Assembly (NCBI GenBank): GCA_035268685.1
Contig: DATFKK010000111.1
Span: 1-64,000 of the forward strand
Origin: Candidatus Krumholzibacteriia bacterium
GTDB taxonomy: Bacteria; Krumholzibacteriota; Krumholzibacteriia; JAJRXK01
Length of the DNA: 64,000 bases
Reading direction: 5' to 3'
This document shows positions 19,201-24,465 of the stretch, piece by piece. A program made the position numbers and the translations under genes. Position 1 is the stretch's first letter, and each line of letters begins with the position of its first letter. The notes beneath the pieces were generated by a model. The model ran no database searches. It was not told the DNA's origin and saw only the letters and a program-made list of their open reading frames with translations.

Positions 19201-20352
19201 CTAGCCGTGTCTCTCCCGGAGCACCCGTGAGGCCGCGACCATGGCGTCGAGTTTGCGGCCGGCGTTCTCGGCCTCGTTGACGCACCGGTTGGCGAAGCAG
19301 CCGAAGCCGCAGTCGGGATTCAGCAGGATCTGCTCGGGTCGCCAGAACTCGAGGGCCCGCTCGGCCTGCCGCACGATGTCCTCGACGGGCTCGGGATCGT
19401 CGGTCCGCGGGTTCACCACGCCCAGGCCGATCTCGCGATCGTTCAGCGCGCTTCCGACGACCTCGATGTCACCGGCCCTGGGCGTGGCGTACTCCAGCAC
19501 GAGCTGGTCGACCTCCATGGCCTCGAAGCAGGGCAACAGTTTCGCGTAGTCGCCGGTCAGCAACACGTCCTCACGGCGGCTCCAGTTGCCGCGGCACACG
19601 TGCATGGCCGTGCGTACGCCCTCGACACCTCCGATCACCCGGTTGATCAGGTCGGCCGCGTATTCGAGCTCTGCACCCGCGTCCCGGCGGGTCGCCAGGG
19701 TCGCTCACATGAAGGTGCGGCGGTCGCAGTCCTCACCCATGACGATCTCGGTGAGCACCGGCTCGTCGAACTGCACGATGGCCGCGCCGGCGTCCCGCAG
19801 GTCGACGAGTTCGTCGTGCAGGATCCGGACGACGTCGTCGCCCATCTCGGTCTTGTCACCGTAGGAACGGTTGGAGTAGCCGTTCACCCACATGGAGCGG
19901 GTGAGCAGGTAGGGTCCCGGCAGGGTGACCTTCACGGGCGTGTCGGTGAGTTCCTGCACGAAGCGGAGCTCGTCCACGGCCAGGGGCTCGCGGCGCTCGA
20001 GGCGTCCCGTGCACGTCGGGTTCTTGATGGCCGATGCCGGGACGTCGAGCGTGGCGAGCATCTCGTCGAAGCTCGACTTGTCCTCGACGGTGTCGAGCAT
20101 CTCGGCCAGCGACATGAGCTCGGTCCCCTCGAGCTTGTCGGTCACGAACGAGTAGAAGTTGTCGCGGTGGTGCTCGCCGTCGGTCACGACGTCGACACCC
20201 GCCTGCTCCTGGCGTGCGACGCAGGCCCGGACCTCGTCGTCGGCGATCCGGGCGAAGTCCTCGCGGGACATGCGACCCTTCTGCCGCGCACGGAGGGCCT
20301 TCAGCAGTTCCTTGCTCCGGGGCCAGCTGCCCACGGTGGTGACGTCGAACAT
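19201..20352 (-). CDS. MetE-type cobalamin-independent methyltransferase with one in-frame TGA (selenoprotein candidate)
   Basis: If codon 216 is read through, the product is a full-length 383-residue single-domain MetE-like enzyme. The start MFDVTTVGSWPRSKELL, GVDVVTDGEHHRDNFY and LPGPYLLTRSMW match the family. Downstream of the TGA lie the zinc ligands: MHVCRGNW (His, Cys), LEYATPRAGD (Glu) and NPDCGFG (Cys). The TGA (19705-19707) falls between RRTFM and ATLATRRD, with no frameshift on either side. A single-base change from a Cys codon would produce it; I believe homologs have Cys near here but cannot check. Otherwise the gene is split into 215- and up to 167-codon parts. Confidence 0.75.
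19675..19692 (-). promoter_or_regulatory. Hairpin 18 nt downstream of the in-frame TGA in the MetE-like gene (SECIS-like position)
   Basis: On the minus strand ACCCGC-CGGGAC-GCGGGT forms a 6-bp stem with a 6-nt loop whose second base is G. The loop starts 18 nt after the TGA at 19705-19707, inside the usual bacterial SECIS window. Chance formation in GC-rich coding DNA is possible. Confidence 0.25.
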
Positions 20353-20425: not shown

Positions 20426-22498
20426 CTAGCGCAGCATGTCGAACAGGTAGGCGTAGGTGAGCGCCCACATGTACGCGCGCTGGTTCTGGTTGGCAGCCAT
20501 GCCGTGGCCGCCCTCGGTGTTCTCGTAGTACAGCACGTCGTGGCCCATGTCGGTCATCTTCTTCACCATCTTGCGCGCGTGGCCGGGGTGTACCCGGTCG
20601 TCGCGGGTCGAGGTGTAGAAGAGCGCGCGCGGGTAGTCGGCGTCCTCCTCGACGTTCTGGTACGGCGACCACTCCTTCATGTACTTCCAGTCGTCGGTGT
20701 CGGGGTTGCCGTACTCGGCCATCCAACTCGCGCCGGCCAGGAGCTGGTGGTAACGCTTCATGTCGAGCAGCGGGACCTGGCAGACGACCGCTTCGAACAG
20801 CTCGGGGCGCTGCACCATGACCGCACCGACCAGCAGGCCGCCGTTGCTGCCGCCGGCGATGCCGAGGTGTTCGCGCGAGGTGATGTCGCGGTCGATCAGG
20901 TCCTCGGCCACGGCGATGAAGTCGTCGTAGGCCCGCTGGCGGTTCTCGCGCAGGGCCGCCTGGTGCCAGCGCGGACCGAACTCACCGCCGCCGCGGATGT
21001 TGGCGATCACGTACACGCCGCCGCGCTCGACCCAGGCCTTGCCCGTGGCCGCGGAGTAGCGCGGCAGCATGGACACCTCGAAGCCGCCGTATCCGTACAG
21101 CAGCGTCGGGTTCTGGCCGTCGGCCTCGAATCCCTTCGGGGTCATGACGAAGTAGGGGATCATGGTGCCGTCGGCCGACTCGGCCTCGTACTGCACCACG
21201 TCCATGCCCGAGGCGTCGAAGTACTCGGGCGTGCTCTTCACCTTCTCGGGCTCGGCGCCCGGACGCTTCAGGTAGAGGCTCGAGGGTGTGAGCGGATCGG
21301 TGTAGGTGAGGAAGTAGTGGTCGTGCTGATCGCTGGTGGCGGCCAGGCCGACCGAACCCATGCCGGGCAGTTCGACCTCGTCGCGCGTCCAGGCGCCGTC
21401 GTCGTAGGTCAGCTCGTACAGACGGCTGCGCACGTTGTCGAGGGTGACCAGCAGCAGACGGCTGCGCGTGTTGCTCACGCCCGACAGCGAGACACGCTCG
21501 CTGGGCTCGAAGATCACGTCGAAGTCGCGGCCACCGGCGAGGAAGGCGTCGAGGTCGATCGACAACAGCGCGCCCTTCGGATACGTCGTGCCGTCGACCT
21601 CCCAGTCCGACCGCAACGAGAGCATCATCTGGCCCTCGAAGAAGCCACGGGGCTGGGCGTCGCTCGGGATGTCGAGCTTCACCAGATGGCCGTCGAGCAG
21701 CATGCGGTACGTTCCGCGGAAGAACTCCGGCGTCTGGTAGACGAGGTCGTAGTCGCCCTGGTCGGTGCGGTTGGTGAAGGCACCGACCGAGACGTCCGTC
21801 TGCTCGCCGGCGTAGACCAGCTCGGCCTCCTCGAGCGGGGTGCCCCGCTCCCACAGCTTCACCAGGCGCGGATAGCCCGAATCGGTGAGCGAGCCCTCGC
21901 CGAAGTCGGTGCCCACCCAGACGGTGTCGATGTCCTTCCAGCCGACGTTCGACTTCGCCTCGGGCAGCTGGAAGCCGTCCTCGACCCAGGTCCTGGTCGC
22001 GGCGTCGAACTCGCGGACCACGGTGGCGTCGCCCCCGCCGCGCGAGAGGTTCACCAGGTAGCGCCGGTAGTCCGGCCCCAGGCCCTGGGCACCCTTCCAG
22101 ACCCAGTTCTCGCCCTCTTCCTCGGCCAGGGCGTCGACGTCGATCACCGTCTCCCAGACGGGCTCGTCGCTCAGGTACGAGTCGAGGAAGGTCCGGCGCC
22201 AGACGCCGCGCACGTGCTCGGCGTCGCGCCAGAAGTTGTAGAGCCACGGGCCCTGGATCGACACGTAGGGGATCCGGTCCTGCGAGTTGTAGATCTCGAG
22301 CAGCTCCTGGTGGATCTCGTCGAACTCGGGGATGGCCTCGAGCTCGGCGGTGTCCTCGGCGCTGCGCTCCTCGACCCACTCGAGGGCCTTCTCGCCCTCG
22401 ACCTCCTCCAACCACAGGTAGGGGTCGTCGTCGGAGGCCAGGGCCGGTGTGGTCACCAGCAGGGCACCGAGGGTCAACAGCAGGACGAAGCGGGGCAT
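20426..22498 (-). CDS. Exported prolyl oligopeptidase family (S9A) serine peptidase
   Basis: 690 residues with a signal peptide (MPRFVLLLTLGALLVTTPAL). The N-terminal part begins DDPYLWLEEVEGEKALEWV as in S9A enzymes and continues into a beta-propeller (about 80-410). The catalytic alpha/beta-hydrolase domain follows: nucleophile GGSNGGLLVGA, Asp in TSTRDDRVHPGHA, His in NTEGGHGMAA. It cleaves short peptides after proline or similar sites in the periplasm. Length and order match the family; nothing is missing. Confidence 0.95.
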   Translation of the reverse strand: MPRFVLLLTLGALLVTTPALASDDDPYLWLEEVEGEKALEWVEERSAEDTAELEAIPEFDEIHQELLEIYNSQDRIPYVSIQGPWLYNFWRDAEHVRGVWRRTFLDSYLSDEPVWETVIDVDALAEEEGENWVWKGAQGLGPDYRRYLVNLSRGGGDATVVREFDAATRTWVEDGFQLPEAKSNVGWKDIDTVWVGTDFGEGSLTDSGYPRLVKLWERGTPLEEAELVYAGEQTDVSVGAFTNRTDQGDYDLVYQTPEFFRGTYRMLLDGHLVKLDIPSDAQPRGFFEGQMMLSLRSDWEVDGTTYPKGALLSIDLDAFLAGGRDFDVIFEPSERVSLSGVSNTRSRLLLVTLDNVRSRLYELTYDDGAWTRDEVELPGMGSVGLAATSDQHDHYFLTYTDPLTPSSLYLKRPGAEPEKVKSTPEYFDASGMDVVQYEAESADGTMIPYFVMTPKGFEADGQNPTLLYGYGGFEVSMLPRYSAATGKAWVERGGVYVIANIRGGGEFGPRWHQAALRENRQRAYDDFIAVAEDLIDRDITSREHLGIAGGSNGGLLVGAVMVQRPELFEAVVCQVPLLDMKRYHQLLAGASWMAEYGNPDTDDWKYMKEWSPYQNVEEDADYPRALFYTSTRDDRVHPGHARKMVKKMTDMGHDVLYYENTEGGHGMAANQNQRAYMWALTYAYLFDMLR

Positions 22499-22584: not shown

Positions 22585-23331
22585 TCAGTCCTCGCCGTAT
22601 CGGCGCTCGGTGAACCAGGAATCCGGATCGGTTCCGAGGAACGCGGCCATCTCGCCGACCACGTCCTCCGGGCGGTGCAGCAGGCCCTGGGCCCGGAAGT
22701 CGTTGAAGGTCTGGTGGCCCGGGAAGTGGTCGGGCGAGGTCGAGCGGGCCTCGCGCTGCATGTCGGTCTCGACCAGGCCGGGTTCGTAGCTGAACACCGC
22801 GGCCTCGTGGGACTGCAGTCCGGCCTCCTCGAACTCGGCGGCCAGGGTCTGGCCGGCGATCCGCAGCGCGGCCTTGGTGGCGCAGTAGTCGCCCAGGCCG
22901 GGGTAGGCGGAATGGGCGGCTCCCGACGACACGTTCACGATCCGCAGCCGGGAGCCCGCCGGCCGGATCTTCGCGAACCGGCCCATGAGGAACTGCGGGG
23001 CCGCCGAATTCACGGCGAACATCCGCCCCAGATCGGTGGCCTCGACGGCACGCATCCAGCTCAGCGAGCCGAACAGGGCCGCATTGTTCACCAGTCCCAG
23101 TCGCTCGACGCCGTCGAGCCGGGCGCCGACCACTTCGTCGACGAGCCCGGGCAGGGACTGAAGTTCGCTCAGGTCCGCGGCGTGGTGCGTGTAGCGATCG
23201 TGCTCGATCCCGGGGTCCCGGCGCGCCACACCGACCACATGCCAGTCGTCGCGGAGCAGGAGGTCGACCAGGGCGCGGCCGATGCCCGAACTGCTTCCCG
23301 TGACCAGTACCAGTTTCTGCGCGGAATCCAT
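22585..23331 (-). CDS. Short-chain dehydrogenase/reductase (classical SDR)
   Basis: 248 residues. The NAD(P) motif is TGSSSGIG, then VNNAA, the catalytic Ser in VNVSSGAAHSAYPG, and YCATK providing Tyr and Lys. The extended C-terminus (SYEPGLVETDMQ) resembles sepiapterin-reductase/benzil-reductase-type SDRs. The substrate is unknown. GGAGG lies immediately before the ATG. It is followed on the same strand by the TusA-OsmC and DsrE genes upstream, so the three may form a transcription unit. Confidence 0.9.
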   Translation of the reverse strand: MDSAQKLVLVTGSSSGIGRALVDLLLRDDWHVVGVARRDPGIEHDRYTHHAADLSELQSLPGLVDEVVGARLDGVERLGLVNNAALFGSLSWMRAVEATDLGRMFAVNSAAPQFLMGRFAKIRPAGSRLRIVNVSSGAAHSAYPGLGDYCATKAALRIAGQTLAAEFEEAGLQSHEAAVFSYEPGLVETDMQREARSTSPDHFPGHQTFNDFRAQGLLHRPEDVVGEMAAFLGTDPDSWFTERRYGED

Positions 23332-23347: not shown

Positions 23348-24094
23348 TCAGACGACGGCCAGCTTCATGTGCAGGGTGCAGGCCTTGCGCAGCGTCGCGG
23401 CGATCGGCGACCTGGCGACCGCACGCTCGAAGCATGCGCCCAGAGCCTCCTCGTCGTCCATGGACGAAGCGAAGCACTTGAGCGTGATCTCGGAGAAGCC
23501 GGGGTCGCCCTCCTCGGCGAGGCCCATCACCACGAGCACGTTCTCGAGCCGGCCGGTGGCGGTGATCTCGATGTCGTCGACGTCGAGCGAGGCCTGGCGG
23601 CACTCGTTGGCGAAGCCCGTGCTGATCGAGGCGGTCAGCGCCGTGAGCAGGTACTCGACCGCGCTGGCGTGCTCGTCGCGTTCCTCGAAGCTGGCGGGCT
23701 GGCCGACCTCGACCGTGAAGTTCCGGAAGTAGACCTTGCTGCGCATGGGCCCGGTGGAGCGGGCACGCACACGCCAATCGTACTCGCGGGCCTGTTGGAG
23801 GTCCTCGTCCAGGCCGTCGTCCTCGGCCTCGGCGGGCTCGCCGCGCCGCACGAAGTAACGCACGGTGCCGGGTTCGTCGTCGGTGCGCTCTCCGACGTAC
23901 TCGTGGCCGGTCATGCGGCACCAGGGCGGGAGGTCGTCGCGGACCGTGGCCTCGCGGCTGCGGATCTCGAGGATCCCGCCCACCGGCACCTGCTGGATGT
24001 GCTGGCGGATCAGCAGCGCCAGCCCGCTGCCGCAGTCGAGGTCGCCGCCGTCGAAGACGTGGTCGGCGGCCGGGCCGTTCGAGCGATCGGCCAT
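23348..24094 (-). CDS. TusA/SirA-like domain fused to OsmC-like domain
   Basis: 248 residues. Residues 12-75 resemble TusA (GDLDCGSGLALLIRQHIQQV, VGGILEIRSRE, DLPPWCRMTGHEYVG); the single Cys of DCGSGL occupies the sulfur-carrier position, although the usual CPxP is changed. Residues 105-248 are OsmC/Ohr-like (SKVYFRNFTVEVGQPASF, EYLLTALTASISTGFANECR, ITLKCFASS). The fusion suggests a persulfide or organic-peroxide thiol function, probably dependent on the Cys in ANECR. It starts 5 bases after the DsrE-like gene. Confidence 0.85.
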   Translation of the reverse strand: MADRSNGPAADHVFDGGDLDCGSGLALLIRQHIQQVPVGGILEIRSREATVRDDLPPWCRMTGHEYVGERTDDEPGTVRYFVRRGEPAEAEDDGLDEDLQQAREYDWRVRARSTGPMRSKVYFRNFTVEVGQPASFEERDEHASAVEYLLTALTASISTGFANECRQASLDVDDIEITATGRLENVLVVMGLAEEGDPGFSEITLKCFASSMDDEEALGACFERAVARSPIAATLRKACTLHMKLAVV

Positions 24095-24099
24095 CACGA

Positions 24100-24465
24100 T
24101 CAGTAGGCGCAGTAGCCGGAGCCGTCGGCCAGCCACTCGACCAGGGCGGCCCCGCCGGCGGGTTGCGCACCCTCGATCAGGTCGTCCTCGCCGATCGAGC
24201 GCTTCTTCATGCACGGCGAGCAGACCCAGATCTTCCCGCCTCCGCGGACGAACTTGTCGACCAGCTCCTTCAGCGGCGCGAAGGGCTCGCCTTCGTCGAT
24301 CTTCTCGGCCTCGCCCGGGGCGGCGGCCCAGGCACCGTCGGCGCTCAGGAAGACCATGGTGTCCTTCTCGCTCGCCAGTGCGGCGTTGGCGACCACGAAG
24401 GCCAGGGTGGCCTTGTCGCCGTTGGTGCGGGATTCGGAGAGGGTGACGCAGAACTTGTTCGACAT
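24100..24465 (-). CDS. DsrE/DsrF-like sulfur-relay protein
   Basis: 121 residues of the DsrE fold: MSNKFCVTLSESRTNGDKAT, ANAALASEKDTMVFLSADG, and the functional loop KIWVCSPCMKKRSIGEDDL with a CxxC-type pair. Members carry persulfide sulfur between proteins such as TusA. The gene is directly upstream of the TusA-OsmC fusion (5-base gap), which supports a common sulfur-transfer task. A further Cys is at GSGYCAY near the end. Confidence 0.88.
   Translation of the reverse strand: MSNKFCVTLSESRTNGDKATLAFVVANAALASEKDTMVFLSADGAWAAAPGEAEKIDEGEPFAPLKELVDKFVRGGGKIWVCSPCMKKRSIGEDDLIEGAQPAGGAALVEWLADGSGYCAY

Follow-up and report, generated by a model that had tools for sequence, protein, structure and literature searches.

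A MetE-like zinc-site gene with a conserved in-frame TGA very probably encodes a selenoprotein

RESULTS

The DNA analyzed here, referred to as the window, is a 64,000-nucleotide stretch of contig DATFKK010000111.1 from a Candidatus Krumholzibacteriia bacterium. On its minus strand we found a MetE-like (Meth_synt_2) gene at 19201–20352, whose frame runs from the ATG at 20352 to the TAG at 19203–19201 and comprises 384 codons, including a single in-frame TGA (codon 216, 19705–19707). Read as selenocysteine (Sec), this codon yields a putative protein of 383 amino acids with Sec at residue 216, which matches Pfam PF01717 (Meth_synt_2, the MetE catalytic domain) at 117.6 bits (cut-off 21). An earlier, sequence-only reading had stated, without naming a strand, that the frame is the same on both sides of the TGA, which is what we observed on the minus strand. 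Upstream of the gene, on the same strand, lie genes for an S9 prolyl oligopeptidase (20426–22498; PF00326, 170.8 bits), a short-chain dehydrogenase (SDR; 22585–23331; PF00106, 86.6 bits), a TusA-like/OsmC-like fusion protein (23348–24094; OsmC PF02566 at 40.9 bits, and TusA PF01206 at 28.1 bits, slightly short of the cut-off of 28.6), and a DsrE-like protein (24100–24465; PF02635, 54.6 bits). No curated NCBIfam model was passed by the DsrE or the TusA/OsmC fusion protein. The DsrE, SDR, and TusA/OsmC genes all end in TGA, so that TGA otherwise serves as a stop in this genome, which rules out an alternative genetic code.

The predicted protein retains the catalytic residues of its superfamily. 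The His-Cys, Glu, and Cys zinc ligands that the sequence-only reading had placed downstream of the TGA proved invariant in a 32-row alignment: H251 and C253 (19594–19602, minus strand), E287 (19492–19494, minus strand), and C348 (19309–19311, minus strand), equivalent by alignment to H641, C643, E665, and C726 of E. coli MetE. Also invariant are S9, E60, and D196, which match the homocysteine-site residues S433, E484, and D599 of the E. coli enzyme (PMC7857596). An AlphaFold model reached a mean pLDDT of 87.5, and Foldseek returned MetE catalytic domains and the MesD structure 3rpd (best E about 1e-21); a search of a viral structure library gave no relevant match. Both the sequence and the predicted fold show a MetE-type barrel of one domain in which the zinc site and a homocysteine-type substrate site are intact. 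It shares with the MetE catalytic domain the barrel (TM-score 0.77 to T. maritima MetE, by query length), the zinc ligands, and the homocysteine-site residues, but it lacks the N-terminal folate half and differs further in its Sec, in an extra loop with the invariant Cys/Sec216, and in its association with a TusA/DsrE/OsmC gene module. The core methionine synthases MesA–MesD (PMC7857596) are likewise single catalytic domains (Shewanella 3rpd, with a TM-score of 0.81 when normalized by the length of 3rpd), whereas the window protein is only ~19% identical to 3rpd, exceeds no curated model cut-off, and belongs to a family whose conserved neighbors are sulfur-carrier genes; no MesX or corrinoid gene was recognized among those neighbors. 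In the AlphaFold model, residue 216 falls after the strand that ends at D196 and before helix 225–240, and the segment 216–222 has a pLDDT below 50. Sec216 is thus predicted to sit on a poorly ordered, flexible loop, where the model is too poor to give a distance to the zinc.

The TGA itself is conserved. Across 118 related genomes, homologs that were 73–76% identical and had exactly one TGA each occurred in seven, in addition to the genome of the window, and with further searches the TGA was found at exactly codon 216 in 14 genes including that of the window (relatives 69–76% identical). These genes come from the window's class and from metagenome-assembled genomes labelled Planctomycetota or Latescibacterota, and in the tree they form one fully supported clade. 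At the same aligned position, directly after the RRTFM motif where the sequence-only reading had proposed looking for Cys, all 27 non-TGA homologs (47–55% identical) have TGC or TGT. Protein identity amounts to 0.70–0.78 before the TGA and 0.68–0.75 after it, with an excess of third-codon-position changes on both sides, which indicates purifying selection on either side of the codon. Because the same codon recurs in 14 genes at identities of at least 68%, with the third-position excess on both sides, the conservation of TGA216 is, by these comparisons, far above chance.

These data bear directly on whether the codon might be a defect or a true stop. The use of TGA as a stop elsewhere in the genome would agree with a decaying gene in which the codon is a nonsense mutation or a sequencing error. 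Either reading is hardly credible, since 14 genes from separate genomes share this TGA, selection downstream of it is purifying, and the hairpin described below is under synonymous constraint; a base-call error in particular is untenable, since the TGA recurs in 13 other sequences. It is also very improbable that the TGA is a regulated stop giving a 215-residue fragment, or that the two halves are separate cistrons: a GTG-started frame does exist 3′ of the TGA, but the zinc ligands lie solely in the second half and the substrate residues in the first, the Cys homologs are single chains, and both the frame and the spacing have been kept. On the strength of the 14 conserved TGAs and the selection downstream, we accordingly rejected a nonsense mutation, a sequencing error, and a split gene, and the comparative evidence indicates that the gene is neither an error nor a pseudogene.

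Across the family, the only invariant cysteines are C/U216, C253, and C348, and neither MetE nor the YxjG-like proteins have an equivalent of residue 216. The Sec clade alone additionally carries Cys352 and Cys357 (19282–19299, minus strand), which are present in 14 of 14 members, versus Thr and Pro in 27 of 27 Cys forms; we infer that the two may be a redox partner pair gained together with Sec. One more homolog, L058 (G318 C23:265423-266541; 51% identical), has a TGA at the residue-216 position and sits inside the Cys group, which raises the total of TGA sequences in this column to 15 and makes the tree require two changes of state. L058 lacks Cys352/357, with Thr and Pro in their place, as well as the hairpin conserved in the main clade; its genome encodes SelA and MetH. 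Its TGA would be either a separate Cys-to-Sec change or a mutation.

Downstream of the window's TGA lies a bacterial SECIS-type hairpin (19675–19692, minus strand) of the form ACCCGC-[CGGGAC]-GCGGGT, with arms at 19692–19687 and 19680–19675 and the loop at 19686–19681. With 6 bp, a G at loop position two, and 18 nt between TGA and loop, it is the hairpin that the sequence-only reading had described. It fits the whole bacterial SECIS model (loop of 3–9 nt, stem of 4–16 bp, G in loop positions 1–2, 16–37 nt from the UGA, minimum free energy ≤ −7.5; PMC13188914), having a loop of 6 nt, a stem of 6 bp, CG at the first two loop positions, a spacing of 18 nt, and an energy of −11.0 kcal/mol in isolation. 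In E. coli fdhF, the loop AGGUCU follows 17 nt after the UGA. The SelD UGA of the window's genome has GGGGAC at the same offset. Folding the region after the TGA, as had been proposed, recovered the SECIS-type hairpin, but the minimum-energy fold of the window 60-mer is a different pairing, and the SECIS case therefore rests on conservation.

This conservation was pronounced. The register is kept in all 14 TGA genes (loop at +19, six bases, CG[G/U]GAY), while the same register and loop length occur in none of the 27 Cys homologs. Four of these 27 contain by chance a hairpin of 6 bp or more that loosely resembles the conserved one, at another position or with another loop length, for which reason we rejected the hairpin as stand-alone proof. 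The hairpin codons 221–226 show the strongest synonymous constraint of the 70 six-codon windows in the gene, with a synonymous entropy of 1.90 against an expected 7.00 ± 0.69 (z = −7.7; 0 of 20,000 permutations were as low). Covariation was uninformative as proof since the stem hardly varies, being nearly invariant with one compensatory pair only. A covariance model built from the 14 hairpins had the window hairpin as its sole match at E < 0.1 in the window and gave no hit around the genome's SelD UGA, so that the model is specific to the metE-like gene.

The genome is equipped for Sec decoding. A check for selA, selB, selC, and selD, suggested by the sequence-only reading, located all four: SelA (466.2 bits), SelB (335.7 bits), and SelD (324.9 bits, with an in-frame TGA of its own) scored above their cut-offs, and tRNA-Sec scored 74.2 bits against a gathering score of 47. 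Among 12 Sec-form genomes checked, SelB above cut-off was not found in three (G034, G119, and G121), which are drafts. SelA was present in 52 of 53 genomes carrying the metE-like family versus 154 of 196 noncarriers (Fisher p = 3e-4, uncorrected for kinship); because the background is already 154 of 196, this co-occurrence (58 of 60 at first count) constitutes modest, kinship-confounded evidence. Sec decoding is very common in the group at large, with SelA in 206 of 249 genomes of relatives of G118.

Outside the window, the metE-like gene is accompanied in most relatives (L032–L036, L072, L074–L077, L082–L084, and L087), in Sec and Cys forms alike, by a TusA–DsrE–TusA/OsmC module. The module genes usually lie directly upstream of the metE-like gene, which in most relatives adjoins TusA/OsmC, and some loci have a TusA gene after it; the DsrE-like gene is kept beside the TusA/OsmC gene in both Sec and Cys loci. 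In the window, the DsrE and TusA/OsmC genes are on the same strand as the metE-like gene and are separated from it by the two unrelated genes for the oligopeptidase and the dehydrogenase. The window's genome also encodes MetH (1190.7 bits), which is present in 13 of the 14 Sec genomes. Given the conserved module and the presence of MetH, ordinary (bulk) methionine synthesis is unlikely to be the main job of the metE-like gene.

The same data weigh on a more specific proposal, namely that the protein is an ordinary cobalamin-independent methionine synthase of the "core" type, converting homocysteine to methionine from a methyl-corrinoid donor with Sec as a better nucleophile. Its zinc and homocysteine-binding residues are conserved, and single-domain core synthases of similar size exist (PMC7857596). 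Against this stand MetH in nearly all Sec genomes, the linkage to sulfur carriers, the lack of a counterpart to residue 216 in MetE or YxjG-like proteins, and the scores of all NCBIfam methionine synthase models (TIGR01371, PRK04326, and other equivalogs), which stayed below cut-off (best 184.3 of 406 bits). We consider such a core synthase improbable.

DISCUSSION

We conclude with high confidence that the metE-like gene encodes a genuine selenoprotein in which UGA216 is decoded as selenocysteine, presumably with the SelABCD machinery that the genome itself encodes and with the hairpin 18 nt downstream as its guide. The comparative evidence thus supports the selenocysteine-containing MetE-like enzyme that the sequence-only reading had put forward. 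What is new here is the enzyme class; Sec decoding itself is ordinary. Redox enzymes and metal-site oxidoreductases make up most of the known selenoproteins. An inventory from 2026, which covers 119 families of prokaryotic selenoproteins, lacks a Meth_synt_2 entry (PMC13188914), in agreement with the earlier remark that this family was not known to contain selenoproteins, and no methionine synthase was named in the other selenoproteome literature that we searched. Known bacterial selenoproteins with Cys homologs (such as SelD, FdhA, OsmC-like, and DsrE-like) share the UGA/Cys pairing and the SECIS geometry with the window gene, but the inventory counts no Meth_synt_2 protein among them.

As to function, we propose that the enzyme is a zinc-dependent thiol or selenol methyltransferase or demethylase whose partners would be the TusA, DsrE, and TusA/OsmC carriers. 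The loop with Sec216 follows the substrate-binding strand and probably swings into the active site, where residue 216 would act as the nucleophile for the group (sulfane sulfur, selenium, or methyl) passed to or from the carriers, while the zinc would activate the thiol or selenol partner. In the Sec lineage, Cys352/Cys357 might then reset residue 216. Everything in this scheme beyond a selenoprotein with a zinc site, including the nature of the substrate, is tentative, and we give it somewhat less than an even chance of being correct.

A selenium-specific form of this scheme would place the enzyme in selenium homeostasis, where it would demethylate methyl-selenium compounds or add methyl groups to selenide or selenohomocysteine, and TusA/DsrE would hand selenium on to SelD. 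The higher frequency of SelA among carrier genomes is in line with this idea, as is a related MetE-like Sec protein encoded beside the selenoneine synthase SenA (see below). Elsewhere, UroD-superfamily corrinoid methyltransferases act on methyl-selenides, and TusA/TusD-type transcripts go up under selenium depletion (PMC10418091, PMC11097638). These Mlp/SdmB-type enzymes resemble the window protein in their related fold, their occurrence in Sec-using organisms, and their proposed selenium role, but they are not described as selenoproteins and have corrinoid protein partners; the M. mazei methyltransferase 4ay7 is a weak structural match to the window protein (TM-score 0.53). However, kinship confounds the SelA association, we recognized neither selD nor selA nor a selenium transporter in the module, and DsrE, TusA, and OsmC are mostly sulfur proteins. 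A dedicated selenium role accordingly appears rather unlikely to us.

Returning to the broader scheme of a thiol or selenol methyltransferase or demethylase, we see a nearly even chance that a Sec-dependent zinc methyltransferase with TusA/DsrE/OsmC carriers represents a not yet described branch of one-carbon metabolism dealing with sulfur or selenium, and that Sec arose in the MetE superfamily in two or three independent events (one or two at loop position 216, and another at the catalytic zinc ligand of a different subfamily, whose gene lies beside selenoneine synthase in one genome). Sec by the zinc site of a methionine-synthase-type methyltransferase would extend selenium biochemistry to another catalytic class, and the TusA–DsrE–OsmC–MetE module offers a concrete entry point to an uncharacterized pathway of sulfur or selenium in bacteria that have not been cultivated. 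Such genes are truncated or split when a gene caller takes TGA for a stop, and the metE-like family with Sec is therefore probably undercounted.

A second Sec position in the superfamily, like the conserved gene module and the separate TGA in the L058 lineage, had not been part of the sequence-only reading. In another Meth_synt_2 subfamily, two genes (L028:1501-2601 in G109 and L089:1501-2610 in G376), 66% identical and from genomes of different families, have a TGA exactly at the zinc-ligand Cys (HLU-RGN), followed by a strong SECIS-type hairpin with the loop GGU. L088 (71% identical) and other close homologs have Cys at this ligand and no such hairpin. The two proteins are candidates for carrying Sec as a catalytic zinc ligand. 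SelB was found in G109 at 370.6 bits and SelA was not, in a genome that is 86% complete. L028, on contig C286 of G109, is flanked on one side by an egtD-like gene (TIGR03438, 258 bits) and on the other by the gene for SenA (NF041186, 504.6 bits; cut-off 420), which suggests a link to selenoneine or ergothioneine metabolism. This SenA neighborhood was not seen in the other genomes examined; in G401, an egtD homolog lies nearby.
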